Assembly (NCBI GenBank): GCA_034620365.1
Contig: JAQGEQ010000020.1
Span: 992,001 to 1,056,000, forward strand
Reading direction: 5' to 3'
Source of the DNA: Pegea sp. RAD2-039
Lineage: Eukaryota > Chordata > Thaliacea > Salpida > Salpidae
Length of the DNA stretch: 64,000 nucleotides
The translations under genes and the position numbers were made by a program. The notes beneath the pieces are model-generated. The model saw only the letters and a program-made list of their open reading frames with translations. It made no database searches and had not been told where the DNA came from. Within the stretch, counting starts at the first letter, position 1. Each line of letters begins with the position of its first letter. This document shows positions 1 to 54,282 of this stretch, one piece after another.

Positions 1-139
1 CAGAAAATAAGATGTAAATAATTTTACATTTTTGTAGTATATTTTAAATTATGCTTCTTATTATTTGTCAGATCACTTAATTGTTTCAACTGTTGCAAAT
101 TAAATTGTATTAATTATTATTAATTATTAATTAGTGAAG

Positions 140-1561
140 ATGGAAAGCAAAGGTGTGCAGCTACAAAAACGTCTCACCTTACTTAATGGCGTTACAATGA
201 TTATTGGAAACATCATTGGATCTGGTATTTTTTTAACACCGAAAGGAGTTCAAACAGAATGTGGCTCAGCAGGTTTAAGTTTAATTATTTGGGCTGTAAG
301 TGGCATATTCTCATTGATTGGTGCTATTTGTTATGCTGAACTAGGAACAACTATCATTAAATCTGGAGCAAGTTATTCATATATCAAAGAAGCTTTTGGA
401 CCACTGTTAGGTTTTGTCAGAATGTGGATTTCTGTTTTAATCATTGAGCCAACCGTTCAAGCTGCTATTGCTATCACATTTGCTGATTATCTGATAAAAC
501 CTTTTTTTCCAACATGTGATTCACCTTTTATTGCTGTTAGATTACTAGCTGCTGTTTGTTGTTTATTTATTTTAGCAATGAATTGCTACAGTGTAAAATA
601 TGGAACCTTAATACAAGATATCTTCTCTTATGCAAAAATAATTGCATTGATAGTTATTATGATTGCTGGTTTGGTGACTTACATAAATCATGGTACCACT
701 GTAGGATCTTTCGGAGATGTATGGAAGGGAACTACACTTAGCGCTGGAAGTATTACTTTATCTTTATATTCTGGGCTTTACTCTTATGCCGGATGGGATA
801 CTTTGAATTTTATGACTGAAGAATTGAAAGATCCATATAAAAATCTACCACGTGCTATTTATATTTCAATGCCTTTATGTACAGTTGTTTATCTATTGGC
901 TAATTTGGCATATTATGCTGTGTTGACCCCTGAAGAGTTAGTCAGTGCTGATGCTGTTGCTCTAGTTTTTGCAAGTAAGACACTTGGTAATTATGCTTGG
1001 ATCATGTCAATTTTTGTTGCCATGTCAACTTTTGGAGCTTTAAACTCTTCTTTTTATGCTTCTTCAAGACTGTTTTATGTTGCTGCAAGAGAAGGTCACC
1101 TACCACAATATTTTGCCATGGTTAGTCCTACCCATTTGACACCTATTCCAAGTCTGTTTCTGACAGGGTCATTAACTCTAGTGTACCTATGTGTAGAAAA
1201 TGTGTTTGATCTCATCAACTTCTATAGTTTTATGTATTGGCTGACTGTTGGTTTATCTATTCTGGGGCAAGTATATTTGCGTGTTAAAAAGCCGGAAATG
1301 CCCAGACCTATCAAATTTAGTTTGGTTTTTCCCATATTGTTTACTGCTATATGTGTCTTTCTGGTGATTGTTCCTTACTTTACTGAGACCACTGAAAGTT
1401 TGATTGGTACAGCTATTTTGGCCACTGGTTTTCCTTTGTACTTTGCTTTTATTTATCATGGAGGCATTGTCTCTAATTACTTCTATAAAGTAACAAATAA
1501 AGTCACAATTTTCATGCAAAAAGTGATACCTGTTATCCATGAGACCATACCTGATGCATGA
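140..1561 (+). CDS. SLC7-family amino-acid transporter (light subunit of heteromeric transporter), copy A
   Basis: Intronless frame of about 473 codons for a 12-helix APC-superfamily exchanger of the LAT/b0,+AT type, acting in the plasma membrane. The helix-1 substrate motif reads IIGNIIGSGIF, followed by the conserved CYAELGTTI...GASYSYI block of helices 2-3. The Cys in IKPFFPTC (about residue 126) sits where LAT proteins bond by disulfide to the SLC3 heavy chain (4F2hc/rBAT), so a heavy-chain partner is expected. The frame can be read from GTG at 134, but the first ATG is at 140 and is the likely start. Having no intron is unusual here and suggests a retrocopy origin. It is nearly identical in its middle part to the inverted copy at 41410-42840, while both ends differ. 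Substrate cannot be told from sequence; the family assignment is firm. Confidence 0.93.
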   Translation: MESKGVQLQKRLTLLNGVTMIIGNIIGSGIFLTPKGVQTECGSAGLSLIIWAVSGIFSLIGAICYAELGTTIIKSGASYSYIKEAFGPLLGFVRMWISVLIIEPTVQAAIAITFADYLIKPFFPTCDSPFIAVRLLAAVCCLFILAMNCYSVKYGTLIQDIFSYAKIIALIVIMIAGLVTYINHGTTVGSFGDVWKGTTLSAGSITLSLYSGLYSYAGWDTLNFMTEELKDPYKNLPRAIYISMPLCTVVYLLANLAYYAVLTPEELVSADAVALVFASKTLGNYAWIMSIFVAMSTFGALNSSFYASSRLFYVAAREGHLPQYFAMVSPTHLTPIPSLFLTGSLTLVYLCVENVFDLINFYSFMYWLTVGLSILGQVYLRVKKPEMPRPIKFSLVFPILFTAICVFLVIVPYFTETTESLIGTAILATGFPLYFAFIYHGGIVSNYFYKVTNKVTIFMQKVIPVIHETIPDA

Positions 1562-10856: not shown

Positions 10857-11602
10857 TTATTGACAAGGATATCTACAAATACTTTTAATAACATCACTAG
10901 CAAGATCTTCTGTTAGCTGATTTTGATCTAATGCTTCAAAATGGTCATGATTTTCACTGATTTTACTCAAAGTTGAGTTGAAGTTGATATCTCCAGTATT
11001 AACACTAATGACCTGAAAAATGATAACAACAGAATAATTAGATGTACAAAGAATTTATCTAGCACCTGTATTTGTCTATATCTTAAAAATGGATCGAATT
11101 CTTTCAAAATATTCCTCATTTCTTTGTTCTCGTGAGTAATTACAATTACATAGTCTTTTGCTGCTCTTCGGTTTCCTGGTTGTCGTATGGTAGACATAAA
11201 TAAACTTTCAACTACTTTTCTACTATTGGAACCTTCAAAAGTAAAAAGTTAAAGAAAATCTTCAAAACTTTGTTGACTTCTGTAACTTACCAACTCCTCC
11301 ATAAGGCATAAACTTCAAATGTCGTAGAAAAGTGGCTAAATTAACAGCCTCACCAATTCGTAGCTCATTTTTGAAATCAACTTCTCTATGAAATCTGAGA
11401 ATTCCCGCCATAGCACCATAACGGTTGTAACGAAATTTGATAACAATCTAGGTTTGAATGAACTTACACGAAATGCTTTTGAAGAAATTATTACTTACAT
11501 CTTCAACGAATCTTAAAACACGTTTCCAGTTATCATATCCCATATCAGGATTACTCTCCAATAGGAAGAATAAATCAACGTTTGACATCGAAGGGCATGG
11601 CT
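10857..11602 (-). other. C-terminal von Willebrand A domain with a lost metal site
   Basis: The last four coding exons form a vWA fold: VDLFFLLESNPDMGYDNW (strand 1), RYGAMAGILRFHREVDF (strands 2-3), FMPYGGVGSNSRKVVESL (helix 3), RAAKDYVIVITHENKE (strand 4), RYRQIQVISVNTGDI (strand 5) and a final helix ending in ICRYPCQ. The MIDAS D-x-S-x-S position reads E-S-N-P-D, the T position is G/S, and ITDG has become ITHE. The domain should therefore not bind ligand through a metal. Confidence 0.85.
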
Positions 11603-14600
11603 CTGAAAACGTCTTATTTAAAAACAGTTCAATAAGAGCTTAGTAACCATTGTACAGAGAGTATTTAATCTGTCTCAAAATTTATATAAAGTGTACAAAG
11701 TTTTATTTACAATTATTGAGTACTTTATAGCTCTACATTAATAGCATTCAAGACTTTTAATGACTAATTTGAGCCGCTTACTTGCACAGCAAGGTTTAAT
11801 CTCTGACCAGTCACCAGATTTATCACAATTAATTTTGTTTGCACCGAACATCTCAAGCTTGTGGGAATTTGAATTACAGGAATATCTAAGAAAATCGACA
11901 TCAATAGACATTGTAAGATGTTTTTATGTTGAGTTTTACTATAGCTAGACTGTAGTATCGTTTAAATTTGTTATAGAATACTACTCGCTTGTTTAAGCAC
12001 CCGTGACTTTTCAGCATTAAGGTGGTTATCATTATCAACGCTTATTTTGTCATAAAAAAAGTTTTCATGAATTCAAGATCACTAATTGAACTGAGCTAGC
12101 TTTTGAGTAAACACTAAATTTAGAGAAAATATAAAGCGGGATAACACAAGCAACTTCATTATGCAATTTAAAATAATAATACAATAAGAAAAATGTTGAT
12201 CGATATATTAGTTGACACTTTAATTGATATTTAAATCAAGCTATAATACCTGCAAGTTGAGTTTACAAAACTTGAGTCTGAACATTCGACATTTCCGTTA
12301 TTCAGTTGAAGATAACTTTGATCACAAACTCCTGAAATTTTAATGAAAGATCATTTTTGAACATTAATATTATTATTTAAAGTGCTAAAAATGCTTTTTA
12401 AACAAAATATCATATATTTTTCGTTCTAACTTTTACAAAGTGGCATAGGACCAGACCAAGAGCCGTTCCGTAAGCAAGTAAAGATAGAATCCTTTCTAGA
12501 AACTGTCAACTTGTAACCAACATCACAAGAAATTGCACAGAATGTCCCTGGAAGATAATCTTCTGAGCCAAGAACTTTGAAACAAGCTTTCTTTCCATTA
12601 GTAGTGAGTGGTGTAGGACATGAAATTTCTATGAATTTTAGAGATTATTTAAAAACTTATTTTGTGTAAAATAATCCATAAAACTCACGTTTGCAGTTTG
12701 GTATTGGTTTGGACCACAACTTGTTTATCTGGCATTTTCTAAAGTTTGGTCCTTCTAATCGGAAACCTTCTACACATTGGTAGGTAGCTGTAGATCTGTA
12801 GATAATGTAAAAGTTTTTCAATAACTAGAAGTCAGTAGTAACTTACTCATAATGATTTGAATCAGATAAAGCAAAGTTTGAATTTGGAATATCCAAATCT
12901 TCTACAGGACAAACAATTTCTATAATATCAAAATTAGTTAAGATAATTAAAGAACAATAGATAATTCTCACGTTTGCAATCTGCAATCGACCCAACCCAT
13001 TTACCACTACTGGTACATTGTATCGAAGGAATGATGTTCGAGTCATGAGTGAATCCATTCGCACATTTTGTGTAGCAGTTTGAACGGAAAAAATAGGAGT
13101 CTGAACAATCGATGATTGTATTCTTGGGAACAACAGGTGGTAAGCATTGATTCTCTATATTATCGGTTAAACGAGTTTAGCATAAGAAGCTTTTTACTTC
13201 AAACAATTACTTTCACAAGTTCCTAGTTTTGGTTCTACAACTAATGATCCGTTTACTTCATGACATTTAACTTGACTTGGGCCAACTAAATAAGATCCTC
13301 GTTCACAAACAACAGTACAATTTCCTTCTGTGTCACAAGACACCTTTCCGTAGCTCAACGTCTAGTCACAGGTACGATGAGACATTATGGCCTTTTACAA
13401 AATATACGCTTACCAATGAAGAGCACCCAGTTGTCTTTTTACAAGTCGGAGCAGCTGATGACCAAGAGCCGTAGAAGCAGCAAACTGACAATGGAGATGA
13501 AGACTCCGCCATCATATACCCATCATCACATTTGTAAGTACATCTCGATTTCATTTGATTTTTTCGACTACAAAAAGCTTTACCATTGTCAATCATTAAA
13601 GCACTTTCATCACACTTTCGAACTGAAATATAATGGGTCAGTTTATAAAAAAGTCATTTTTGTTGCTTGTACTTTGGCATCGAGATATGGATCCCTTCCA
13701 ACGAGAGTCTGACTCACACATGACGAAGTTTTTTCTACCAGTGGGTGTCTCGTAACCTGCTTGACATCCAACAAAATAACAAATTGATCTATACCGGTTG
13801 CCATCTAAGCATCTAATAAAGGTGTTTGGAGGTGATTCGAATACCGAGCATTCAATTTCTGAGCAAAATTCAGTTAGAAAGAAAATATTTGACGATTTTT
13901 ATCAAACACACTTTTGCAAGAAGCCATTTTCGGCCACCACGTTCCTTCTGCAGTACATCGAGACCAGGTATAATTACCATCGACTTCAAATCCTTTATCA
14001 CAGATTAGTTTACAAGTTGACTCGTAAGAGTTATCATCATTGCAATCTAAACGCCCGTTGATGACTGATTCCTAAAAAATATGAAAATATTTTTGATGTC
14101 ATCTAAATCAAAGTCTCGTATTTTACCAGATCAAAAACAGGACATTTAATTCTTTTACACTGAGGAACTCTTGAATGATCCCAGCTTCCATCAGATTGAC
14201 ATTCGTAAGAAAAGTAAAGACTCTCGTTGAAGTTGCTCAACTGGAATCCATCTTTGCATTTAAACGTGCATCGAGACTGATATTTAAAATCATCAGAACA
14301 CTGAAGGATTCCATTTTCAAACTGAGATAAAGGTTCCTCCGAGCAAAATATCTCTGATTAAGAAATAAGCGCTTAGACGAAAAATATTTGTCAAAAATTG
14401 TTTGATTTACTCTCACAAATCCCCAAGACTCCAGCCCACTCTCCCGATGCTAGACAAGAGGCTTCAGTCACCTCTCCATAAACCTGATAACCATCTTCAC
14501 ATTCAGCTAAACACGAGGAGCCAGCAAAGAAGTGATTAGAACAAGCCAGCAAAGAGTTAAGACTCGGTTCCAGATCCTCACACGTGATTGCTAAAACCAA

Positions 14601-17600
14601 GTTATAAAATGTTGGCAAGTTTGATTCGAAATATAAAAGAAATATAAAAGTAAAAATAGTTGTAGCAGATAACTAAATAAAAAACTAAAATTTGATTGTA
14701 GTAAAAGGATGGATAAAATATTTCGATTTTCGACTATCAAATAATTGAAATATTATTTTGAAGTATTCATTGGTGAAACAACTTACGATCGCAAAAAGCA
14801 AAGTCACTGCTCCAACTACCATCGCTTAAACACACAACTTTAGAGTTGCCTACTATTTCATATCCAGAGAAGCAATCGAGGACACATTGCGACATGAAGT
14901 TATTGCCATTTGTACAAGTCACTTCCCCATATTGCAGTGCCTAGGTGGTTAAAGCTATATAATTTTTTTAAGGATTTTTAGATTTAGATAATTCTTACTC
15001 TTTCAATATCAAGGCTTTCTGCTGAGCATTTTATCTTTGCACATATTGGCGATGAGCTAGACCAGGACGCATTCAACTGACATGTTGATGTTAACTCGTA
15101 AGACATATACTGAAGACTGAATCCTGGATGACAGGAAAACTTGCAAATAGAGTTTACTGAAGTACCATTAGAGCAATTTGCTTCTCCATTTTCGATATAG
15201 ATGTTTTCTTCTGGACAACCTGAAGCTGAAAGGAAAAAAGGCAAAAAAAGATCAAACTAAGAAATGAGCGTTTATTTTGGATTCAGCCAACTTGTAGCGG
15301 TTTTAAATAACATAACAACAGTACCACCTTCAAATACCTAACGGTAAACTCTCATATAAAGTTGATTCTACTGACCTACACAGCTGGGAAGCACACCACA
15401 CCATTCCCCATCACTTCGACATTCGATGCCCTTAGCGTAATTGTAGCTCAAATCCGGGTCGTTCAGTTCGTATCCAAAGTCACAAAGGACTTTGCAAGTA
15501 GAACGGAACTTGTTGTCATCCGAACAAATAATTCGTGAGTTTTCAGGTGCTTCTAATATCCGACATTCGATTTCTAACGAAATTAGAAGTGAATTTACAG
15601 AATAATTTGATGAAATGAGCTAGATACCTTCACAAACTCCCTGCATCCGGTCCCAAACTCCATCATTTCCACATTTGATGTCTTGATATCGGTTTATTCC
15701 ATCCAAAGCAAAACCATCGATACAAGTAAATCGGCAAGTGGAACCGTATTCAACTCCATCAAGACAAACAGTCTCACCATGAGGATCCGATTCTAACAGT
15801 TTCTTATCACATTCCACTTTGACACATTCAGGAGCTTCTGGAAGATTCCACTTTCCATTCTCGACGCACTTGACAATAGCAGAAGTGGAATCGAAATCAT
15901 CAAAAGGACTGGCAAGACGAAACCCGCTGTTGCACTTCCAGAAACACTCAGATTGGAACTTGTTGGAATCTGTACAGCTGATGATTCCATTAATTAGTTC
16001 CTTCCAACCTTCCAATGGACACACGTTTTCTACAACCACAAAGATAATCAACTAAATCTTGATCGCTGCTAACACTCACTTTCACAAGGCGGAAGATGCA
16101 CTGGTTCTAAGTCCACGACATTATCAGAGAGACATGATACAGGTAAAACGGAAATAGAGTTTCCATGGCTACCACGAGTCACGTGATCCCATGATATATC
16201 TCCCTCCATCTTCATATGGTGTCCCGGAAAACATTTGTAGTAGCAAGTAGATTGGCTACCACCTTCGCAATCCAACAACCCGTTTTGTGGAATGTCAAAA
16301 CTTTTGCATTCTAATGCTGCGATTGATTAGAGATTAGAAGTTGATGGATGTAGAAATTTGTTGGTTACTGTGGCAACGTCCAATCTCATCACTCCATGAT
16401 CCATTCTTATGACAAAAGATTGATTCTTTCCCCAGAATTCTTTCTTTAGATCCACATGAGGCTGAGCATTCCGATCCTACTCGGTTACCTTCTGTACATG
16501 TCACATTTCCTGTTTCATACGCCTACAAGTGATTCAATTATCTACATCTATGACGAAGAATTAGAAAAAAGAGTGGATACCTCGATAAGAGAATCAATAT
16601 TTGTGGGGCATGTGACTGGTTCACAAATAGGTAACGATCGATTCCAATGTCCATCAGGATCGCAGCTGATTTGAATACTATCTGTGACCTCATAGTATTT
16701 TTCGTTGTCGAAAAATCGGAAGTTATCGAAGCAAGTAAAGGAGCAGATGGAGCCAACAAAATTTGAATCACTACATCTCACTGATTCGTAACTAGGATCC
16801 AGATAGCTTGCAGAACAAGTTTTTTCTAAAAAACACGTCTCCTGATTGATAATTGACGAGGACATCTTTCAACTCACTTGTGCAAGTTGGTAAGGGTTTA
16901 CTAAAACTCCCATTTTGCAAACAAACTGATTGAGCAGATCCATTTATTTGGAAACCAACATGGCATTCAAAATTACAAATCGATTTGAACTTGTTTGAGT
17001 TTGTACAAGACATTGCCCCATCTTCTAATTGTTCAAACTCTTCACATCTCACTTCTAATAAAAAATCATTGGTTAAATATAGTTTAAGTATACTTACTCT
17101 TCAACAAACCTTTGCAGTAGCCAATTTTATCCCATTTTAGATTTGAATTGCAAGTAGTTCTGTCAGCACCTTCAACAACTTCAAGTCCAGCTGCGCACCG
17201 AATCTCACAGCTTGAACCAAAGAAGTCTTCATTTGTGCAGTAAACTGAACCGGTATTTCTCGCCTAAATTCAAATAGTGAGTAAAGCAAGTAGACGTTTG
17301 CATAAAACTTACAAGGGAAAATTCCTCTTCGTAGCCACTGCAGACTTCTTTAATACAACGAGGAACTGAATGAGACCAGATATTAGAAGAAGTGCAGTGG
17401 ATGGTAGAAATGTGATTTTCAGTGGATAGTTTAAAGCCAGTATTACAGGTGATATTGCAAACGGAATCGAACAAGTTAGAATCACTGCATTTTACATTTC
17501 CATTCATTACTTCTATTTCATCACATTCTATTTCTGTAGATAAGCATTTGAGTTAAAACCGATTATTTGATGTTGAAATTGTGTTACGTTTACACATTGG

Positions 17601-20600
17601 CTGCTTAGAAGACCATGTTTTGTCTAACTGACATTCAGTAAATAAGTTTCCCTCCAAATAATATCCCGTATTACATTCAAAATAACACTTCGACTCGTAA
17701 ACATAATCAAAAGTACAAACATGATTAAGATTTGCTTCAGTTTGGAGATCAGGGCAAACAATTTCTAGAAAAATAAACCGAAATTACATTTTATTATCTT
17801 GATACCAACGAAATGATGCTTGCAAATATCAATCAATTACTTTGGCAGCTTCCGACTAGTTGATTCCATTCACCAAGAGATGTACAAGTACTCACATCAG
17901 CACCTATAACTTCATAACCAACATCACACTGCAATTCACACATGGACAAATAGTTATCTTCATCAGTACAAGAAAGCCTACTATGCTGTTCCATCTGAGA
18001 TATTTTAGTTTAGATTTTTATGACTTTAAATTTTTGTAATTCACTTTTTGTGTGGTAATATCTTTAAATGAGCATGTCAGCTTGTCACAAGTTGGTTTTG
18101 GCATGGACCAACTGCCGTCTGCTAGGCAAGTCACTGAACTTTCTTCTTGCTTTATCTCATAGCCAACTGTACAATTGTACCGACAAATAGAAGTGAAATA
18201 ATTAGAATCTGTGCATAAAATACTCCCAAACTCATTTTCCAAATAGGACGGATCACATTGCTTTTCTGCAAGTTATCGAACCACGTGACATATTTATTTA
18301 CTAATATACATTACGATCTAACTTACTGGTACAAATTGGTGCTTTTTGGTCAAACAAACCATCTTGTTGACAAACAGAAGCATTATTACCCACAATCTCG
18401 TATCCTTCATTACAAAGAAATTTACAAGTTGATTGAAATTGGTTGTCATTGGTGCAAATAAGTTGACCATTAACTGGTGAGAAAAGAGGAAGGCAAGTTT
18501 TTTCTGAAATATCAACAGTTTGTAAAAACGTATAATGAAACTAGTTTCCACAAATACTTTTACACTGTCCCAGATTATCGGACCACGAGCCACTCAACAG
18601 GCATTTCATTATTGTTGGACCAACAACTTCAAAGCCTGCTCTGCATTGCACTCGACAAATAGAATTAAAGAAGTTGTGATTCGAGCACAAGATTGTTCCG
18701 CTTCCAGACAACTGGATGTAAAATAGTTAGTAAATAGTAATTAAAAGTTTGAAATTTACTTTCATAAGTTTGCTGTAGTTGACAGGGCAAGTGATAATTT
18801 CACAACTGGGTGGGTTGAACAAGTCCCAGTGTCCGTCAGAAGAACATTTAGCTCGACGAGAACTTTCTTTGGTTAGTTGATATCCTGCTTGGCAGAAGAA
18901 AGTGCATTCGGAAGCGAATTTGTTGAAATTTGAACAAATTTTCATCGTATTTTCAAAAATAAGATCATTGCAGATAATTTCTGTTGAAAGATTACAAAGT
19001 TGTAAAAGAGATCTGAAAATAGAAGTTAAACCTTCGCATGTAGGTGGAGGTGATGAGAAAGATCCGTTTCCTTGACAGATGGATTTACTTGTGCCAATTA
19101 ACCTGTATCCATGAATACATCCAAATGAACAGTTTGATTGATAATTATTTTCATCTGTACACCTCATTTTTCCATTAGTAGGCTTTTCTAAAACTTGGCA
19201 ACGCTTTTCTGCAATGAAAGTTGTGATTGACCATTAAAAAATGTAAATTCATTTTCGCTAAACTTACTTTCACATTCTCCTAATATTGTAGACCATTCAG
19301 TAGTATCTTGGCAACTGGTAACTTGTTCACCTTTGATTTCATATCCAGATTCACAAGTTAATTGGCATTTTGACTGATAAAGATTTGAGTCTGTACATTC
19401 CAGCTTTCCATTTTGTTTCGTCTGATGATGTAATTGATTATTTAACAGAAATAAACTTTGACATTTTTTAACACAAAAAGATATAAGTTTAGGTACAACA
19501 AACAAAAATAATTAGGAAATTGTTTTATGTTGAACATTCGGTTATATCATTTTAGAATAAGAAAATCACAAACTTTCAACTTTTGTGAGTCACATGTTTT
19601 CTTCACACATTCCTGGTTTTCTGCTGACCATTCTCCATTTTGACCACAACTTGATGACCACTGGTTTAATCCTTTCTCTTTATCTTTAACATTTATCTCA
19701 AATCCAGGGAGACACTGAAGCTGACATTTAGAGGAAAAATAGTTGAAATCAGAGCAAGAAATCTTGCCATTAACGGCTTTTCTATCATCTGGACATTGGA
19801 TCTCTGCAAAAGTTGGAGTTTCAACAAATTAAGGGAAATATTTTTCTTCTGACATACTGGTACAAGTTGGAAATTCATTTTCAAAAGTTTTGTCCATTTG
19901 GCAGGTTGTTTGCTGCTGACCAGATAACTGGTAACCAAGATTACAAGTGAAAGTACATGTTGATTGAAAGACATTACCATCAGAACATGTTATTACTCCG
20001 TTATCAAAACTTGTTGATAGGGAGCAACGAAGTTCTGTTTGATGAAAATAGTTTGATTGATAAGGAAGTCATTTTGAGCCTCAAGTTGAACTTTACAATT
20101 TTATCGAAAAATATTTCTATTTTTTAATTAAATAGTTTTTGAGGTAAAATGAAATTACTTTGGCAATAGCCAATCACAGGTGTCCATTGTGTTTCTACAG
20201 AGCATTTTGTCACTTCATTTCCAATTAGCTCATACCCATCTTGACACTGAATAGTACAAGAGGACACAAATTGCAGACCAGTTATTTCACATGAAACATT
20301 TCCACTTCTTCGAGCCTAATCAAGAATTTATTTTATTTACTTTTTACAACAAACATGTTTGAGCTAGTTAACCTTGACAATAGAGCCGTCTTGTTGTGAA
20401 CACTGTTTTCGAACACACAACATTTCGGTTTGCATAAAACTCCAGCTTCCGTTTGAAAAACATTCAAAGATCGGATCAAAGAGTTCTGTTGCTTCTTTGG
20501 AGACTTTTACTAGCTCATATCCTACTTCACATTCAAATTCGCATTTACTTCCGTACTTGTAATCTTCAGTGCAAACTGTATGTCCATTTTCAATCGTCAA

Positions 20601-23600
20601 ACTTGGGCAAGAAATTTCTGTTGAGTAATCAGCAGTGATTGAAAAGTTGAGTGTGATCAAGTGATTACTTTCACATCTTGGTGGAACAGAAGACCAATTT
20701 TTATTAGAACTGCATTTTAATGTTTCTGGTCCTTTTAATTGAAATCCTTCATCACAAACAAACTGACAAACAGAACCAAACCAGTTCAAATCACTGCAAG
20801 ATTCGGTTCCATTTTTGATCTGTGTAACTGGTTCACAACGATTTTCTAAAAAATTTATTTTTCTTTTTCTAGCTAGTTTAAATCAAAAATTGATTTTACT
20901 TTGACAGAAACCGATTGAAGAACTCCAATTTCCGTCAGATTTACAATCAACGGTTTCATCTCCATTCACCTCATGCCCAACATCGCACAGCAAACTACAC
21001 ACAGATCCAAACCAGTTAGAGTCAGTGCAAGTAACTTGCCCGCTTTCAGTTGCCTATCAGTAACATCGATAGTATCAAGTAGTTATAAAAGTTTCTTCCA
21101 TCAGCCAACCTTTATATAATCATCTCTTGTAGTTGAACATTTTTGTTTTTCGCAAGTAGGCGAAGTGTAACTCCAACTCTGATCTTTATTACACTCAATT
21201 AAGAATTTGTCTTCATCTCTTAGTTTCTGACTCGATTTTTTTAATTTGAATCCGTTGTTACATTTGTAAGTACATATAGAGCCAACATAGTTGTGATTGG
21301 TGCAAACAACATCACCAAACTCTAACTGCATCTCATCGTCGGAACATTTCAATTCTAACAAAGAAAATCAATCAAGTAATAAATGTAGTTTGTAATTTAC
21401 TTACGAATACAAGTTATATTCCTTGTATCATAAACCCCATCAGATGTACATCTCGTCGAAGAATTCCCAATTAAACCAAAACCCTCATTACAAAAGAAGT
21501 TACAAATTGCCCCGTATTCGTTATTTCCAGTACATTCTATTCTTCCATATTCAGGAGGTTCAGCCTCTGAACATTTTTTTTCTATGCAAGCAAATAAATT
21601 GATTAAAAATGATGAGTATTAAACATAAATAAAAAGAAAATAATAATGCAGCAATTATTGTTAATACAACAGATAGTAGTTTTTAATCAAAATCTCATCA
21701 GCAACGATTTTTTAAACCTTATCTGATGTATTACATCTGGGTAGTGTAATGATTACCGCACCCGCCTAACAAGTGAGAGGTTTTAGATTCGAGCCCAGGT
21801 GGACACATATTTGCAACAAGGAAAAGTCTATAAAAAACCCGGGTAAAAGGGCCCTTTGTAGTTAATAACAGGATTTCTAAGAGATACAAAACTCCAAATT
21901 TAAAGCCGGAGCTGGAGCCTCGTAGGTAGTTCGTCACTGTACTCAGTGAAGTTCTGGCAGCTCCTGCGACACCAGCTAGGCGTAGTTGCATCAGCCGGTC
22001 TCCCCGCTGAATAAGCTTGTTAGCATGAAGAATGGAATCGTGCTGCATGGGCAACATCTGGATAATTACAATTTCTACCCTGGCATATATATGGTCGTTC
22101 TCAGCCGAAGCAGGCCAAATAAATCCAATTTGATTGTGAATAACTTGAAATTACAAAGGTTTTTCAAGATTAAAATACTAAAGCCAGAAACCTTGCAAAA
22201 GGTGCACCTAAGGCACTAACAACCAGGATAAAAATGAATCGTACAAAGCTTAAAAGCAAATAATGTAATCAACTATCTTTAAAGTAGTAGCTTTTCAGTT
22301 ATTAATCAAAATTTCAATTTATATTAACTGACTTTCAACTTTGCGAAATTCTAAGATTCCAAACGACTTTAAGGCAATGACAGTTTGTAGTAATATTCAT
22401 TGACGATAACACAACGAACAAAAATGTTGAAAAGAGCAATAAATTAAAATCTGTTATAATTATTATTGTGTAAAAAACTAAATTTAACTTTATATATGAT
22501 GGCAAGAAACACCCAAACACTGATAATTACAATCTGGGAAAAATTCAAATAATACTATGTAACTAACTTTGACAAGTGGCAAGTTTACTACTCCAGCTTT
22601 CCTGCTGTTTACACTCAACCACGGAAGCTCCTTCACCAACCTCATACCCAGTGTTACAATTTAAACTACAAACAGAACCAACGTTGAGTCCATCCGTGCA
22701 CTGAATGTCAGCATTCTGAATAGAAATTCGGATTAAAACAAATATTTTGTAAACTTTTATCACTTAAAGAAATTCTCTGACCGGTTCTACTAATTTAGAG
22801 CATTTTTTTTGGACACATTTTGGTTTGTAACCAGTCCACTCTAAACTGTTTTGACAGCTTATTTCATATATATCAGTAACAAGCTCCTTGTCATGGAATT
22901 TAAACCCGTTTTTACAACTAATTGTACAAACAGATTCGAACAAGTCACCAGATGTACAAGTCACTAAGGAGTTTTCGACATCCAAGCGCGATTGATCACA
23001 CCTTCCACCTGCAAATGGTCAGTGAGCATCAGATCCAGTTGAAGATCATTTAAATTTGTGCTTACGTTTACAAAAAGGAGCCTCCGAACTCCAAGCGTGA
23101 TCTGACCCGCATTTAGTTGATTGGTTACCAACTAAAAAGAACCCAGAGTCACATCGAAATTGACATTCAGATTGAAAGTAGTTTTTGTTAGAACAGACGA
23201 CTTGGCCATTCTCTAAATCGACCGAAATCGCGCATTGTACTTCTATAATGTGATAGATAAAGTTAGATAATAGAAGAACCGATGGAAGGAGAAAGAGCTA
23301 CTTTTACAGCTTCCGAGATCTCTACTCCAAGTGGAATTGATTGTACAAACCGATCTTGTAAATCCTACCGCTTGAAATCCTTCTAAACATCGAAGGTCGC
23401 AGAGTGACTGGAAGTTGAATGTATTAGTGCAGATGATGTTGGAATTGTTCTGAGAATAAGATCACAATTAAAAAAGAAGACAATTAAAGAAGATAAACAG
23501 ACTCTGATGACTCTGGGACATGTAATAGCGGAGCAAGCTGGTGGTGATGAGCTCCACTCTCCATTTGATTCACATTTTATGGAGATGCTTGAGTCAGATG

Positions 23601-26600
23601 ACTCAGAAAAATGGAAGCCTCGCTGACAAGTGTAGTTGCAGATGGTTCCAAATACATCGGATCCATTACAGACTCTTAATCCATTAAGGATTTGTGTCTC
23701 AGACTCATTACAAGGTTTCGCTGCAAAAAAAAACTCCTTGGAGTAATCCTGATCCAAATCTTAACCTCTTACCTCTGCAGATAAGAGATGGATTGCTCCA
23801 TGATCCTTGATGTGTACATTCTGTGACTGCAGAGGTTACTTCTTCATACCCCTGATCACATCTTCCTACACATTGGGACATGTAGTTAGTGCCCCGGTCG
23901 CAACTTATTTGTCCGTTAATAATTTCACCAATCTCAGGGCAGCTGATTTCTATAAACAAGGTTTTTCAAAGTTTTATTTCCGAAGGTGGTCGCAGTAGAA
24001 TTGAAGTAATGATGATTAAAAGTTGGAAAATGTTTTCGACTTACTTTCACATATTGGCAATCTAAAATCCCATTCTGGTTGAAATTGGCTTCGAACACAT
24101 TTGATAGTGGACTGTGGGTTCCTCATCTTATAGCCTGGTGAGCAAGAAAGGTAACAAGTCGTGCCTATCTCAAGAAAAGAGGAAGAACAGTTCATGAAAA
24201 GATGATCATCATCAGATGAAGGTGCTTCACATGAAGTTACTGCAACAAAATGTTCAAATTTATTGATACCCATCAGCATGAAGTGAATCCTCACAGAGTG
24301 AATGTGTCACTTACATTTGCATGAAAAGCCATCTGGTTGTAATTGGAAATCTACATCACATGAACAAGTTCTTGATCCTTTTATATTTTCACATGTGTGT
24401 TCACAGCCTCCATTTTCAACACTACATTCATCTATATCTGATAAAAAGTATATCAGAAAGCTGAAAAAGAAATTATTATCTATTTACCAATGCAATCATA
24501 CGAATCTTCCAAAATCCAATTTCCAAACTCTGAGCATTTAGCAGTTGGTACAGTTCCATTAAAAACGTAACCAGTCCTACAATAAAAATAAAAATTAGAT
24601 ATTTAAGGTTTATATTTGATAACAACTCACTTGCAAGAAACCTCGCAAATGTGCCCTGGTTTAAACTGTCCTGCATGAATCACTTCTTCATTAACTTGAC
24701 AGTCCAACTCAATTGATTTATTTACTATCTTTATTAATTCACGCCATTCACACAGCTTTTCTGAAAATAAGATTTTGATCGAAAGGTAGAAATGAAGTGA
24801 TGAAATGGTATCAAGCGGATAAAAACTCATCAAACACTCTAACTGATAAATCATAAAAAATAGAGGAATGTTTCACTCACGTTTACAGTAGAGTCTGGGT
24901 ATATTCCAAGAAGCAACGTTTGATTGACAGATCATAGAGCTTGGGCCATCATGTACAAAACCTTTGTCACAAATTGATGTACAAACGGAACCAGTAAACC
25001 AGTTATCTGTGCAGTTCACTCGACCATTTACTACAGGCACGTTTGGCTCCATACAAGTCATACCTACAGATGAATAAATTAAGTCTTTGGCACCTAATCT
25101 CAAAGCTATTGAAAAAAACAACATCGAGATCAAAGTGAAAAGGTGAGAAAACGCAAACTTGCGTGTAACAAGCTCAATTAACATTCAATTTAGTATCAAC
25201 ATCTGAAACTTGCTGCCTTCTCACGTTATTATCATCAATTATGTAACTAAGTTTTGAACTAGTAGCCACTGACTTACGTTTGCAACGAGGCAACCTTCCC
25301 TCTCTAAAAGCTCCGAATTTTTTTACTTGACATCTAGTTATATGTGTTTTCACTTGATGGTACCCTTCATCACATGAATGTTGGCAAATTGTCCCCGGTG
25401 CCCTAAAATCATGTCCATCACAGTCAGTAACGAGCCCGGAAATTTCAGGAAGCTCATCACAATTTTGCTCTTCATTAAATAATTTAAATATTTAATAAAC
25501 TTTTTATGTAAAAACGAAATTCAAATTTTATCATTTTAGACAATTTTTACATCAAAAATAAATTCAAAAGTAATAAAACAGGTGAAACACATGCAGCACC
25601 TTTTAAAGCAATTTTAATTATTTTATGAATCTTGCAGATACCATAAGTTTCCAAAAATTTAAATGATTAAATTTAAGTTGAATTTTTCATATAATTAATA
25701 AACTATGAAGACTTGTTTTGAACATACTTAGACATCGATATAATTCACCCTTCCACTGTAAAACACCTTCAATATTTCGTACACATGAAAGCTGAAAAAG
25801 ATAAGAAGTCAGTTTTCAAGAAATCAAATTTCAAAGATGTATTTACTTTGCTGGAAACATCTTGATCTGGATGCAGTTCAGAGTGGCGACAGGTGATATT
25901 ACACTCACTACCAATGTTGTAATCGTCTGAGCATTGCATCGTCACATTTTTGAAATTGAATTCAGGTAAAGTTTTACAATGATATTCTGTTTTGATAAAA
26001 AGAATTATCAAAATATTTCAAAGGAATTAACGAAATTTACATAACAATGTGACTAACTTTTACAAGTGGGGTAAGATTTGCTCCATGAACCACTTTTTGT
26101 ACATTCAGAAGGTGTATCGTCGGAAACATAATAATCTCCGAGACATGAAAAAGTACAATTTGATTGATAAATGTTTTGGTTAGTACAACGAACAACTAGA
26201 TTTGGATGCTTTGATTCAGGTTTATCACATCGCAGCTCTACAAATACAAAAACAATTTTAAAAATGTTGCAAAATAAGATAAAAAGATGTAAAAGCATCT
26301 AATCTAATTACAACATTTCGAACAGCTTTTTGGGTTTGAAATTATATCAGAATGCTAAGAATTGATCAAATTTAATCTTACTTTTACAAATTGGTAACGG
26401 CCGATCAAATTTTTCGTCTACGCATCTTCTAAACTTCATATCACCTTCACACTTATAACCTGGCTCTGAGCTAAAACTGCAAACTTGGTTCGAATTTCGG
26501 CCAAGTTTGCAACTAGAAGTCAGGCCAACCGCTCCATCTAATATCATCTTACAATCGCGTCCTAAGTAGACTGTCTATAAAAAAACTGACCGCAAAACTT

Positions 26601-29600
26601 AAACTTGACGTACTTATACATCGAGGTTTGGTTCCTGACCACTCAGCTGTTCTCAGGCAAGTTCTTTTAGAAGAGCCTTTAAGTTTTAAATTTCCAAGAC
26701 AAAATATATCACAAATTGATCCGACTTTGTAGCCGTTTGTGCAAACGGTTTTCATCTTTACATCGTCAAGCGGTTCACAGAAAGCTTCTATAAAAGAAGT
26801 ATTGTAAAATAAATGGTTATTATCGGATTTAGATAAGATATTTTGTATGAAGACTTACTTTGACATTGTAAAGTCTTACCAGTCCAAACTCTATTACTAC
26901 GGCAAGTTCTTTTATCAGCAAAGTAACCTGGCTCGTAACCACTACAAGAATGATAAATCAAATTAGATAAAAGAATTTTAAATAGAGCTTGAAATTACTT
27001 GCAACTTACGTAAAGCAAAGTGCTGTGCAAGTTGAGCCGAACTTATTATCGTCTGTGCAATTCACTTTTCCATTCTCAATTACGTTCCTGAGGAGTGGAC
27101 ATCTCGATGCAGCATCATCGTCATCAGAAGATGGTTGGAATATTTTTGGCTTCATCTTATTTTTATTTTGTGGACTTTTGACCTTTGGCTCAGGTGTGAT
27201 TATATGAGATGCTGTGGTTTTACTTAATATAAATAGTTGTTACTATCTTTAAATAAACTGACCTTCCACAGGAATACATTTCGGTGGGGTGAGCAAACTC
27301 CATGTCCGGTCTCTTCTACAAACGCTAAAACTTGTACCAGTTAGTTGATGATCTTCATTATTACACTTCCAAGAACAAACAGAACCAATTTTGTCGCCGT
27401 TTGAACATTTCTTGCTCATTTCTTTCGGTGTTTTTAACTGTCGACCACATCCTATTTTTTGAAAAGAGCAATAAAATCTCCATTAAGTTATTCAAAACAA
27501 ACACAAATATTTTGCCAATGTTTATGATGATAACTAGATGCAAATTTAGATAAATTTTAAAACAAGATTTGTGGTATTATCGAACTAAAAACCTTGTTTT
27601 TACTTAAATACAAAACCGCAACTTACGGGGCTGACAGGCCAACATTTTGTTGCAGAGGTCACTTTTACAAGTACAGGCACAAAGGTCATCCTTAGAACTG
27701 TTCAAAAATTTAGTAATTGATTATTTTAATAAAAGTTCTACTTTTTAATCTAATAACTTTTATGGTCCTAAGGCTTTAATTTAGTTTCGGAATAAAAATC
27801 ATTTTTTCACTAGATTTAGTGGGTGAAGAAAGCACCTATTTGCGTATTTAAGAATCGGAAATTTGATCTTCGGCATTCAGAGAAAAGCTCATTTATAAAT
27901 AACATCGAAATTCATTTTAATCTTCTTACAAACACTTTTAAAGAGTATTATTCAGTTTTATTAAAATTTTATTAAGTTGCTGTGATATAATAAGTCTTCA
28001 AAAACAATTTAAAAAAATTCTACATTAAAACGAAAGAACTTTGTATATGTAAATGTGTTCAGGAAGAATTTTTTTACACTTCAACAAAAAGATTTTCCAA
28101 GAAGAAATCTTATTTTGATGTTTAACCGACATTAAACTGTTTTCAATACTTTTTTTCATATTCTACATTTTTTATCTTTTTGGTAACCATACAATCCTAT
28201 ATTTTCCGTTTTAATTATTGATCATAACAAATTATTTAAGATATAAGTTTAATAAAGTATTAGTTGGCTGTATAGGTTTAGGCTTGTATGCATTTTTTTG
28301 AAACAGAACCCACCGTAACTATTTGCACATTGGCTTATTAGTGGTTATGGTTTCACTTATATTCTAATCTTGTAAGCTTATGTGTAATCAAAGATCGGTT
28401 CTTCTGCTTTAATTATGAGATTACAAGGATTCTTCTTTTGCCAAAATAAGAAAATTGAAAGTGAAGAGATACAAGAAGTTTATCACCTTAAGCATTGTCG
28501 TAGAGATTCAAAGCCTCCTACTGACGCATGTATCTGCCCACAACGCTTCATGATGATGATGTCACTGCTTGGTGTTCGGACTTCATTTAAACAAGCGTTC
28601 TGTCGAAACACTGAGCTTAAATACTTTAGAAATTTCACCAAGTTTATTTTTTAACTGAAAGATTTCGATTTTAACAAGTTACTTGAAGTTTATAAATTGA
28701 TTATTAATTAGTTGAACAGATAACTTACCATGCCTGTTGGACAACTTCGAATGTTCGATTTTTTATTGCATTTGCTGTTTTTATTTTTTGAATTACAAAC
28801 GTAACATCGAAGATTTGTTTTAGCAAGCTTCTCACTAAGTCCTATTTGCTTTCCTAATTTACCAAAGGCCATAATTTGAATCAAATATTGCCTCTGTACA
28901 CAAATAATATAGTTCGTGACAAAAATTGAAATAAATTACCTAGTTTATCATTTATTGAAACCATTTTCATTACTTATTTCGAATAAGAAATTTGTGTAAA
29001 CAGATCTTATTGAAATAATCGTTTGGTATAAAAATATTAGTTTGAATAAAAGTAGTACACAAAAAACGAAATTAATCAACTTTGCTTTGGTAGAAAATTA
29101 ATTTGTTTTTAACTATATAAAAATAGTTTTGAATGATTAGATTAAATATGTTGGTGGAAAATTTATTTAATTTTCTTTAAGGTTGAACTTCTAGTCGCAG
29201 TTTATTTATTTCAAGTTTGTTTGTTTGTTTATATTTTTGTAGGTACAAATCGAAGCTCTTATCACTTTTCTTACAACCAAACGTGACTTCATGTTTAATT
29301 TCTGCTTGTAATAAAAATAATTGCGAGATAGAAATTTAAAAATACAGTAGTCTTTTATAAGCTAATTTCTGTTTAAGGGACTAATTTAGTTGAAAACTCA
29401 CAGCAGGAACAAGTTTATTGATCCGTACTGTTCGTTCATGTTGACCTGCTTCTTTTTCAGAAGTTGGCTCCTCCTGTTCAAAAGTCGAATTGATCCATTC
29501 TTTCGCGTAAATTCTGATAATATAAAAATAAATGAATTTCAAAACTAAGCACGTAAGTTTTGTTATAGTGAAAACAGAAAAACAAGTTTTTCATTAAAGT

Positions 29601-30321
29601 TTTTCAAAAAACCTGTTATTAAGAACACAACTTTATCAGTCGAATACAATTTGGAAAATGTGTCAGTTGTGTAAATAAATCTTAAGAGATCTGATTGAAA
29701 GATCGATAAGATGACTTTACAATGAAGATCTCATTTCGTCTTTACTATTTGAAGTAATTTTAGAGAAACTATAATGCAACTTTAAAAGTTCTTTCTATTT
29801 CTTACGAAATTTTTCTTTAGTAATCAAAACTCGTTTGCTCTCAGAAGTTTCAATTACTGCACATATATTATTTAACAAAAGAAAAACTAGTTTGTGGTAA
29901 GTTTAATAAGTTCATTCGTGAAGGTATTTCTTCAATTTTCAAAGATCAATTATTGTTATTAGAAACAACAAACTATCTTTAACCCTATTATCCAAGCTTC
30001 AAACCTTTGTACAAAACAGTTCATCTTGCCAAAACTGTTGAGTTTTACTTCTATTTAATTAAATTTTTTATTAATTCATCCTCTATTAAATTACGAAAAA
30101 TTGGTATAAAATTTATTTAAGTAAATATAAGTGACCAATAAAAATTGAGCAACTAACTTGTATGTTTTAGCTGATTGAATCGCTGAAAACCCTATTGTAA
30201 TTGCAGTAGCTTCATAATTGACGACATGAATTTCCTGTTTACCCTTTTTCAAAAAACGAGACTCCACAGAAGTAGCAAATGTGATAAAAATCACGCAGAA
30301 AGTAATCTTAATAAACTGCAT
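10857..30321 (-). CDS. Giant secreted/surface mosaic protein: signal peptide, FN3, LU, about 53 sushi (CCP) domains, EGF, vWA
   Basis: A chain of more than 50 short exons reads continuously from ATG at 30321 to TAA at 10857-10859, giving an estimated 3,300-3,600 residues. Every junction I checked at the N-terminus (30158-30321, 29402-29513, 28729-28893, 28487-28599, 27627-27697) has GT-AG borders and matching phase. Domain order is signal peptide, FN3, LU, CCP1-9, Ca-binding EGF, CCP10-53, vWA, stop. CCPs show the family pattern of four cysteines with C-x-x-G-[FY] and W...P-x-C. No transmembrane segment or GPI signal follows the vWA, so secretion or matrix deposition is likely. CCP/vWA/EGF mosaics (SVEP1, complement factors, CR1) act in adhesion and complement-like recognition, but this domain order matches none that I know. 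Function is unknown. A less likely alternative is two adjacent genes. Confidence 0.85.
12972..23722 (-). repeat. Thirteen tandem copies of a three-CCP unit (higher-order repeat within the giant gene)
   Basis: CCP12-CCP50 repeat in the order B-C-A. B is a long domain whose exon also carries the first Cys of the next domain (endings such as VRKQCSQQ, CEPVTCPTN, CAKIKCSAE). C is a short exon starting like ATESGQVTCTDSN. A is a whole-domain exon starting like EIxC. Units begin near 23722, 23010, 21355, 20618, 19800, 18978, 18265, 17532, 16825, 16031, 15225, 14352 and 13623, so a unit is about 0.65-0.8 kb. Unit 2 is lengthened by a SINE. Similar arrays of long homologous repeats are known in complement receptor CR1, where the unit is seven CCPs. 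Confidence 0.85.
21738..22125 (+). mobile_element. tRNA-Val-derived SINE in an intron of the giant CCP gene
   Basis: The first 65 bases resemble tRNA-Val(AAC): GTAGTGTAATGATTACCG (A box), CGCCTAACAAG (anticodon AAC) and GATTCGAGCCC (B box near 21786-21796). They are followed by a GC-rich body shared with 6690-6965 and ending near GCCGAAGCAGGCC. The element lies antisense to the host gene, in the intron between CCP16 and CCP17, and makes that intron unusually long (about 21600-22560). Confidence 0.8.
24315..24437 (-). other. Calcium-binding EGF domain within the CCP protein
   Basis: One symmetrical 41-codon exon starts with DIDECSVENGGCEHTCEN and ends with DGFSC. It has all six EGF cysteines, the D-I-D-E-C calcium motif and the N-x-x-G-S bend. 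It is the only EGF in the protein and separates the irregular CCP block from the regular array. Confidence 0.88.
24490..27452 (-). other. N-terminal block of nine diverged CCP domains
   Basis: Minus-strand exons encode CCP1 (about 27263-27452), CCP2 (split; it starts after a linker containing SSDDDDAAS), CCP3 (about 26.6-26.8 kb), CCP4 (about 26.4-26.55 kb), CCP5 (about 26.07-26.24 kb), CCP6 (25.74-25.99 kb, split), CCP7 (about 25.28-25.47 kb), CCP8 (24.89-25.07 kb) and CCP9 (24.49-24.76 kb, split). They are more diverged from each other than the later domains and do not follow the three-domain order. CCP4 lacks the usual tryptophan. Confidence 0.75.
27627..28815 (-). other. Ly6/uPAR (LU) domain of the giant CCP protein
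   Basis: Three exons (end of 28729-28893, 28487-28599, 27627-27697) encode a Cys-rich three-finger-type domain. It opens with LRCYVCNSKNK, runs through SCPTGMNAC and KRCG, and closes with CACTCKSDLCN. The C-x-x-C start and terminal C-x-x-x-L-C-N are the LU signature. The domain is followed directly by the first CCP exon. Confidence 0.75.
28790..30321 (-). other. Signal peptide and fibronectin type III domain of the giant CCP protein
   Basis: Exon 1 starts with a classical signal peptide, MQFIKITFCVIFITFATSVES, with likely cleavage near residue 21. It is followed by an FN3 fold spread over three exons: EIHVVNYEATAITIGFSA (strands A-B), SAKTYKIYAKEWI (strand C), RTVRINKLVPARQYLIQIMA (strands E-F, with the typical L-x-P and Tyr) and LGKQIGLSEKLAKT (strand G). 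The fold is assigned by pattern, without the usual early Trp, so it is probable rather than certain. Confidence 0.7.
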
Positions 30322-38401: not shown

Positions 38402-40006
38402 TTACATTCTAGTTGGTTTGAGATGTAAGATATTAATTTGTTCAGTTGAAACAAGTTTTTTACTCCAAGATTGTGAGTTTAAGCCAGAAGTATCAAAGTT
38501 TAACTGCATATTGAGATTATCTCCATTCATAAGCCTGGATGTTGTTGTTTGAAGTTGGGCAGACAGAGCTTTAATGAAATTTTCATATGATGTTATTTGA
38601 TTTTCATTAAAATTAAGTGAAAGCTGAAGTAAAACAGGAAATGATTTTATTTCATGATTAGTTTTTATAACCTTAGGGACTGGTTTACATGGTTTTAAAT
38701 AAGGATGATCTGTAAATAAAGTAAGTTCTGGAACAGACCTTGAAGGAGAATTGTTAAAAGCTGATGGCTTAGGAGGTGGGGCATGAGAAGGGGGTGGTGG
38801 TAGAGATGTTGAAAAAGATGATGAAGAAGGTCTTGAAGTAGGTATTAATTGATGAGATGATGATGGTACTGGTGATGAGGACTTAGACTTAGGTTTTGCT
38901 GATGGAGGCAAAGTAGCAAAAGTTGATAGATTTGTAGAAGATGAAGATTTCGATACAGTTTTTGGAGGTAAAGGAGGAAGAATATCTACTTGTGAACTGG
39001 GTCTTGATGTACTTGAAACTGGTGGAAGAGGTAGATTTCTTGGTGAGCTAGGTCTTGATGTACTTGAAACTGGTGGAAGAGGTAGATTTCTTGGTGAGCT
39101 AGGTCTTGATGTACTTGAAACTGGTGGAAGAGGTAGATTTCTTGGTGAATTAGGACTTGATATATTTGAAGGTGGCTTAAAAGCTGAAACTTTTGGTGAA
39201 AACATTGTAGGTGGTATCAATGATAAGCTAAAGTCCTCATTTTTCTTCAATGTTATTTCAGACTTATTACTTTTATTATCATTTTTGTCTACCATCTGTC
39301 TTTTAAGCTTTTCAGGGCCTACAAAGCCAATAAAGTCATATTCTTGATTTACAGCAGATACAACTTGAGAGACACCAGTTTTAATTAAAGGATTACCTTC
39401 AACACCTTCTCTTTTAGCTTTACTTGGTGCAAACACAGCTGTTTTAGGTAAAGTAATCAACCTGTGTACAATTGAATCTCCAAAATAACTAAAATCTTTT
39501 GTTTGAAAAGCTTTAAGTGCAAAACTTATAGGATTATTTATTCCACTTCCTTTATATAAGCAACCAGCTTCTCTGAAATAACCAAAAGCTGTATCACCAT
39601 CACCACTAAACATATACAATAAGCCTAAATTAAACTGGACTTGCCAAGCATATAATCTAGCTTTCATATTTAGTTGTTTATAATCTATAAAATCATTTCC
39701 TCTTAAAGCTTTGAGACACTTTTTGAAATTTTCCCCAGCATCGGAAAACCTTTTAATCAAGCATTGTACAGCAGCTAGTTGAAAAAATCCAGCAGAGTTA
39801 TATTTATCCTTTTGAATACATACAAGAAAACAATTTTCTGCAAGTTCATATTTATTTTCGTTGAGATAACAGCATCCAATGTTATAGATAATATAGGAAG
39901 ATGGAGCATCAATTTTTTGAAAAGTTGAAGCAGCTAAAGAAAACTCATTTCTTTTAAAAGCATCAACACCATTAATATGTAAAATTATATTCTCCTTATT
40001 ATTCAT
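38402..40006 (-). CDS. p67phox/NOXA1-like NADPH oxidase activator, intronless
   Basis: Single exon of about 534 codons. The longer frame begins with TTG at 40030; the first ATG, at 40006, aligns with the p67phox start. Residues 1-150 form TPR repeats, with the conserved LRGNDFIDYK block. Its Arg (residue 102) and Asn match the Rac-contacting R102 and N104 of human p67phox. Residues about 212-232 (SQVVSAVNQEYDFIGF) match the activation domain that switches on the NOX flavoprotein. A Pro/Ser-rich linker then carries three copies of a 17-residue repeat, and the last 80 residues (FPVLLQLSLNFNENQIT...) may be a worn PB1 domain. No SH3 domain is visible, unlike p67phox (two) or NOXA1 (one). It probably acts in the cytosol with Rac on a NOX1/2-type oxidase. 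The intronless form suggests a retrocopy. Confidence 0.82.
   Translation of the reverse strand: MNNKENIILHINGVDAFKRNEFSLAASTFQKIDAPSSYIIYNIGCCYLNENKYELAENCFLVCIQKDKYNSAGFFQLAAVQCLIKRFSDAGENFKKCLKALRGNDFIDYKQLNMKARLYAWQVQFNLGLLYMFSGDGDTAFGYFREAGCLYKGSGINNPISFALKAFQTKDFSYFGDSIVHRLITLPKTAVFAPSKAKREGVEGNPLIKTGVSQVVSAVNQEYDFIGFVGPEKLKRQMVDKNDNKSNKSEITLKKNEDFSLSLIPPTMFSPKVSAFKPPSNISSPNSPRNLPLPPVSSTSRPSSPRNLPLPPVSSTSRPSSPRNLPLPPVSSTSRPSSQVDILPPLPPKTVSKSSSSTNLSTFATLPPSAKPKSKSSSPVPSSSHQLIPTSRPSSSSFSTSLPPPPSHAPPPKPSAFNNSPSRSVPELTLFTDHPYLKPCKPVPKVIKTNHEIKSFPVLLQLSLNFNENQITSYENFIKALSAQLQTTTSRLMNGDNLNMQLNFDTSGLNSQSWSKKLVSTEQINILHLKPTRM
39000..39152 (-). repeat. Coding minisatellite, 51-bp unit x 3
   Basis: Three nearly perfect tandem 51-bp units, plus a decayed edge on each side, inside the p67phox-like gene. 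Each encodes the 17 residues SPRNLPLPPVSSTSRPS. The unit length is a multiple of three, so copy-number change keeps the frame. Confidence 0.92.
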
Positions 40007-40030
40007 TATCCTGGATAAGAAGTTTAACAA

Positions 40031-48422: not shown

Positions 48423-54282
<5,860 letters not shown>

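Follow-up and report, generated by a model that had tools for sequence, protein, structure and literature searches.

A predicted giant FN3-LU-CCP-EGF-CCP-vWA protein in the salp Pegea sp. and LU-CCPn-vWA loci in the same genome

The giant gene and its predicted protein

The window, a 64,000-nucleotide stretch of contig JAQGEQ010000020.1 (positions 992,001 to 1,056,000, forward strand) of Pegea sp. RAD2-039, assembly GCA_034620365.1, carries on its minus strand a gene running from 30321 to 10857 that we refer to as the giant gene, its product as the giant (Table 1). Joined together, the 67 predicted exons yield a single open frame without internal stops (CDS 11,454 nt, 3,817 amino acids). GT-AG borders are found at all 66 introns (the predictor permitted no other type), exon phases are compatible at all 66 junctions of the model, and introns have a median length of 57 nt and a maximum of 986 nt. 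The protein is predicted to consist of a signal peptide, FN3, LU, nine CCPs, EGF, 44 CCPs and vWA, followed by the stop codon. A sequence-only reading had placed such a gene at these coordinates, on this strand, with this domain order and with consistent phases; the spliced frame, Pfam and the CCP HMM described below agree with it in each respect.

The gene model was obtained by dynamic programming over GT-AG introns and subsequent hand curation. Run with no penalty on exons, the predictor returned 173, of which many were noise lying beyond the array, and this version was discarded; penalties of 6 and 9 gave 91 and 69 exons respectively. By hand, two pseudo-exons within the 986-nt intron (22006-21943 and 21827-21757) were removed, exon ends were fixed at 25986 and 25728, the exons beyond 11450 were exchanged for three taken from frames, and 20845-20373 was divided, following the penalty-6 model, at an in-frame intron of 51 nt.

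Table 1. Features of the giant gene (window positions) and other LU-CCPn-vWA loci of the genome (contig:position in kb).
Feature	Position	Strand	Basis or remark
Whole coding span, giant gene, 3,817 aa	10857..30321	-	spliced open frame, 66/66 GT-AG introns
Start codon and signal peptide MQFIKITFCVIFITFATSVES	30261..30321	-	by eye; most hydrophobic 19-residue stretch begins at residue 1
Putative FN3, aa 30-115, three exons	28827..30234	-	Pfam fn3 E 0.001, under cut-off
Predicted LU (Ly-6/uPAR, three-finger), aa ~118-208	27630..28818	-	Pfam QVR and Toxin_TOLIP under cut-offs; alignment to the genome's LU domains; shared first LU intron
CCP 1-9	24488..27451	-	HMM from the gene's own exons
Ser/Asp-rich linker between CCP 1 and CCP 2	in exon 27211-27010	-	
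One early ABC unit, two CCPs	26237-25728	-	exon phase string
Single EGF, own exon, phase 1-1	24315..24437	-	Pfam FXa_inhibition 3.9e-13, EGF_CA 2e-6
CCP 10-53, the final one ending P-C-C	11782..24239	-	HMM, Pfam, vWA alignment
Nine consecutive three-exon, three-CCP ABC units, CCPs 11-37	16369..23949	-	exon phases 1-1, 1-0, 0-1; CCP positions; period-3 identity signal
986-nt intron, the gene's longest	21582..22567	-	apparent repeat with tRNA-like stretch, by eye
Three further ABC units, three CCPs each	15573-13211	-	exon phase string
C-terminal vWA, four exons, metal site lost, end ...SICRYPCQ-stop	10857..11602	-	Pfam VWA E 2.8e-12, above cut-off
LU-CCPn-vWA	C13:318-340k		43 CCPs by HMM; vWA read in part
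LU-CCPn-vWA	C13:994k		3 CCPs
LU-CCPn-vWA	C116:175k		2 CCPs
LU-CCPn-vWA	C18:1092k		1 CCP
LU-CCPn-vWA	C38:495k		3 CCPs in first piece, 4 in second; 535 bases between unread
LU-CCPn-vWA	C38:506k		7 CCPs
LU-CCPn-vWA	C8:1812k		10 CCPs

The giant contains 341 cysteines (8.9%) and 43 N-glycosylation sequons. Its hydrophobicity (19-residue mean) peaks at 1.76 at residue 1 and is ≤ 1.1 beyond residue 30; with nothing comparable past that point, the protein looks secreted and not membrane-anchored.

The sequence-only reading had named one EGF, one FN3, one LU and one vWA and had suggested a Pfam search of the spliced product. When short pieces of the giant were searched, EGF, Sushi and VWA families scored above their cut-offs, which upholds the EGF (it lies between CCP 9 and CCP 10) and the vWA, whereas FN3 and LU remained sub-threshold: FN3 (PF00041) gave E 0.001 and 19.6 bits (cut-off 25), QVR (PF17064, an LU family) E 3.7e-5 and 25.1 bits (cut-off 27.3), and the LU families Toxin_TOLIP (7e-4) and UPAR_LY6 (0.013) were also below their cut-offs. 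With the protein searched as two long pieces at E 0.01, only Sushi, FXa_inhibition, EGF_CA and VWA were listed and the FN3 and LU families were absent. The LU assignment is supported by alignment to six LU domains elsewhere in the genome, with 30-35% identity and 17 invariant columns. For FN3 the one Pfam match is the whole of the evidence, and the assignment is weak.

By eye, the repeat in the 986-nt intron gave the impression of a tRNA-derived SINE, its tRNA-like stretch being on the plus strand, and similar translated letters were seen near the C116 locus. ARAGORN called no tRNA in the window, this intron included, and the SINE assignment was dropped. Elsewhere the window holds two long amino-acid permease frames, at 131-1558 (+) and 41413-42903 (-), as well as frames of TPR type at 38405-40093 (-) and of ubiquitin hydrolase type at 53519-54097 (+).

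Repeat anatomy of the CCP array

CCPs were counted with an HMM built from nine exons of the giant gene itself, so the resulting number is partly circular: there are 54 matches, one of which is the EGF, leaving 53 CCPs. About 53 had been counted in the sequence-only reading; Pfam Sushi alone finds 42 stretches (19 + 23 in the two pieces). As a control, the HMM gave 49 CCP matches in open frames of the gene's minus strand and none on its plus strand, none in the remaining window on both strands and none in reversed sequence on either strand.

The giant's CCPs are mostly of the six-cysteine type. Cysteine occupies all six consensus columns in 22 of the 53; in 29 more, the column or columns without cysteine result solely from end-clipping of the local alignment, and two (starting at aa 439 and aa 3446) have another residue at a consensus cysteine column. 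The six cysteines are invariant in all 31 aligned exons (34 had been picked for length and at least six cysteines, and three were omitted).

Exon phases within the array repeat in units of three, and so does sequence similarity: in the 27-CCP core, pairs in the same register are more identical than other pairs by 0.025, a value that none of 2000 permutations equalled. These data suggest that the array grew, at least partly, by duplication of three-CCP units. The units have diverged, and these duplications appear to be old.

LU-CCPn-vWA loci elsewhere in the genome

Seven other loci show LU, a run of between 1 and about 43 CCPs, and vWA, in this order (labelled by contig and position in kb, e.g. 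C13:318k; Table 1). Their gene models are automatic, and several are incomplete or partly wrong. At C8, C18, C38:495k and C13:318k the LU domain comes straight after what by eye appears to be a signal peptide, with no FN3 between, and no EGF match is present in any of the seven models, incomplete as several are. FN3 before LU, EGF inside the array and the array length are seen in the giant only.

In all six sequences aligned (giant, C8, C18, C38:495k, C13:994k and C116) a CC pair precedes the vWA and the protein ends in C-x-x-P/S-C. The phase-1 intron preceding the vWA and the phase-0 last vWA intron are common to the giant, C8, C18 and C38. Within LU, the first intron, of phase 0, lies at the same place in the giant, C18 and C8, the C8 model having extra pieces there. 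A phase-1 intron in the middle of the vWA is found in the giant and C8; it is present in the C38 model, which skips residues, and absent from C18. Not shared are the second LU intron and the intron found where the first vWA helix ends (phase 0 versus 2). Searches with the giant's own FN3-LU and vWA sequences gave only weak matches outside the gene (best E 0.022 and 9.7e-4 respectively), so its membership of the family rests mainly on domain order, end motifs and introns. Support for LU in the other loci is weak in Pfam, where an LU family scores above a cut-off in one of five sequences and is listed at E 0.01 for none of three proteins; a sequence search with the LU of C18 found no good match (BMPR2 at 0.08-0.14, three-finger toxins at 0.4-0.9).

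C13:318-340k holds a second giant gene, in which five units of ~ 1.7 kb are 95.5-97.7% identical and a sixth is 81-82% identical. Growth by unit duplication would be recent at C13, in contrast to the old duplications in the window's gene. The window's giant looks like the longest LU-CCPn-vWA member in the genome. Searches confined to the literature yielded no description of the LU-CCPn-vWA order; LU joined to a long CCP array had been a combination unfamiliar to the sequence-only reading, and to that extent the judgement holds, but the seven further loci show that the giant is not unique. It would appear less isolated than first thought, as one of a family from which FN3, EGF, length, three-CCP units and the lost metal site set it apart.

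We take D-x-S-x-S, T and D to be the vWA metal-site motif. Alignment shows these residues kept in C8, C38:495k, C13:994k and C18; the giant has ESNPD, GSNS and THE at these places and has lost them. C116 has NSSKS and TYD, and the vWA of C13:318k reads DASSD and FTTG. The short C38:506k has DSSSS, yet also ITFG, which extends the loss beyond the giants, although the number of cases is small. By sequence, the giant's vWA has its nearest PDB matches, all weak, in collagen VI and integrins; for the vWA of C8 a mussel thread matrix protein joins these two. Since four relatives keep the metal-binding residues that the giant has lost, we suggest that its vWA is probably a metal-independent docking or assembly domain.

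Further LU and vWA sequences were encountered in the genome. LU and one CCP occur within the 2.6-kb piece examined at C13:988k; an EGF-rich mosaic at C14:174.3-171.0k (minus strand, C14 at 172k) has LU adjoining vWA with no CCPs seen; and additional LU matches lie on C14 and C264. At C46:700.8-678.9k (minus strand) a vWA, CCPs and a second vWA with a collagen-like GPPGIPGKPG stretch form either one two-vWA gene or two genes. Fifteen matches to the first part of a vWA lie on one contig at C58:265-414k, five of them in a row ~ 5.1 kb apart. Many vWA matches are also found at C262:1510-1560k, some in open frames of up to 2,060 amino acids, unlike the intron-rich genes described here.

Other observations concern the animal itself. 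Fusion of CesA and GH6 is a mark of tunicates. A GH6 match at C14:74494-74718 is barely above its cut-off (27.5 bits versus 27, E 1.2e-4), and frames upstream of it on the same strand (C14:71.3-74.7k) contain QRSRW and by eye resemble cellulose synthase; this CesA-GH6-like gene points to a tunicate. The homeodomains of the genome include, by eye, Hox4-like, Cdx-like and posterior-Hox-like ones and look bilaterian, and a sponge was rejected on these grounds. A rotifer was rejected because no rotifer spliced leader turned up at up to one mismatch; COX1 gave no match.

Relation to known proteins and proposed role

The giant resembles SVEP1/polydom in being a secreted mosaic in which EGF and a single vWA accompany a long array of CCPs. 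Human polydom, as set out in passages of PMC12549020, begins with the vWA and continues through an ephrin-receptor motif, Sushi, HYR, EGF and pentraxin to a tail made up of 28 Sushi and three EGF domains; the N-terminal vWA is as the sequence-only reading gave it for SVEP1. The giant ends with its vWA, and Pfam (E 0.01, whole protein in two pieces) lists neither HYR nor pentraxin nor an ephrin-receptor domain for it. We therefore rejected membership of the polydom family.

In complement factor B and C2, CCPs are followed by vWA, an order the giant shares, and in factor B a protease comes after the vWA. For the giant no trypsin family is listed (Pfam, E 0.01) and the stop codon at 10857 follows directly on the vWA, whose nearest matches by sequence are collagen VI and integrins. 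With no serine protease past the vWA, membership of factor B/C2 was rejected. Selectin CCPs have six cysteines, as most of the giant's do, and E-selectin is among the 60 PDB matches listed for a four-CCP, 250-residue stretch of the giant, the best being CR1, CR2 and factor H. The giant differs from selectins in its 53 CCPs and its vWA; no C-type lectin family is listed for it (Pfam, E 0.01) and no hydrophobic transmembrane tail is seen, so neither the head nor the tail of a selectin is in evidence.

Among secreted matrix proteins of tunicates, the oikosins of the Oikopleura house are similar in that some carry CCP and one, oik35, carries vWA, according to passages of PMC3390340; 'ly6' does not occur in the text of that paper. 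A search of PMC7344649 for terms of this kind found none. As far as the passages used here go, LU-CCPn-vWA occurs in none of vCRL1, fester, the complement-type proteins and the oikosins.

The open frame, the domain order, the six-cysteine CCPs, the three-CCP units, the seven further loci and the lack of a second strongly hydrophobic stretch were obtained by computation; the function of the giant is read from its domain types only, and recognition or adhesion outside the cell is a plausible role. We rather favour, with moderate confidence, a reading in which the giant is one secreted, non-membrane tunicate protein, the longest LU-CCPn-vWA member seen, acting as a multivalent adhesion or recognition rod. 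The 53 CCPs would form a long, disulphide-stiffened rod that separates an N-terminal FN3-LU head from the C-terminal vWA, and one molecule could bridge partners or surfaces through many weak contacts, with the vWA probably serving in metal-independent docking or assembly. Adhesion or recognition in the tunic, the blood or the egg coat are candidate settings. The array would have grown by tandem duplication of multi-CCP units, long ago here and recently in the second giant on C13.

Could the giant instead be a polymorphic molecule of self/non-self or gamete recognition, as proposed for Ciona vCRL1 and Botryllus fester? We consider this unlikely. Fester carries Sushi and functions in allorecognition, but it is a membrane Ig-Sushi protein for which passages of PMC12065747 do not name LU or vWA; vCRL1 is a variable Sushi protein, but was later reported to be inactive in self/non-self recognition (passages of PMC8849226). 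Growth by near-identical units, as at C13, is the type of change that yields length alleles, whereas the units of the window's gene are old and diverged.

Slightly less likely again is a regulator or receptor of complement type, comparable to CR1 or factor H, with a CCP array that would bind C3-like fragments. The four-CCP stretch does find its best PDB matches in CR1, CR2 and factor H, but any long array of CCPs would be expected to do so. CR1 and factor H have CCPs of the four-cysteine type, in contrast to the giant's mostly six-cysteine ones; to our knowledge neither protein contains LU or vWA, and no membrane anchor is seen in the giant. Tunicates do possess Bf and CCP proteins of complement type (passages of PMC5465252).

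Least probable is a row of two or more adjoining genes (e.g. FN3-LU, CCP arrays and CCP-vWA), with gene ends concealed in the 986-nt, the 789-nt or other introns of at least 500 nt: phases agree at all 66 junctions, the 986-nt intron falls between two three-CCP units, the 789-nt intron interrupts the LU domain itself, and the other loci hold LU and vWA around one array. Because LU opens the array and a C-terminal vWA closes it at seven other loci, and because some LU and vWA intron positions are common to the giant and some of them, the joining of these domains in one protein, as the sequence-only reading had it, is supported, and the giant is most likely one gene.

Returning to the multivalent rod, we speculate that it belongs to a tunicate family, so far undescribed, of secreted recognition rods: the ends are fixed, the array (n from 1 to 53) evolves in length as multi-CCP units duplicate in tandem, and the longest members trade metal-dependent vWA binding for multivalency. 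Such a family might serve recognition that is specific to the individual or the species in an animal that lacks adaptive immunity. This extended proposal is a tentative one that we regard as doubtful, if less so than the alternatives above. The seven loci resemble the giant in having LU first, then CCPs, then vWA (the five aligned share its CC and CxxP/SC end) and differ in having fewer CCPs and, in four cases, in keeping the metal-site residues.

Tunicates, the sister group of vertebrates, use complement-type domains as building blocks of recognition and matrix proteins. With its ends fixed and 1 to 53 CCPs between them, such a family would show growth by domain duplication in clean form, and the use of array length in recognition can be tested on it. 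Confirmation of the order LU-CCPn-vWA in other tunicates would add an extracellular family that is neither polydom nor complement.
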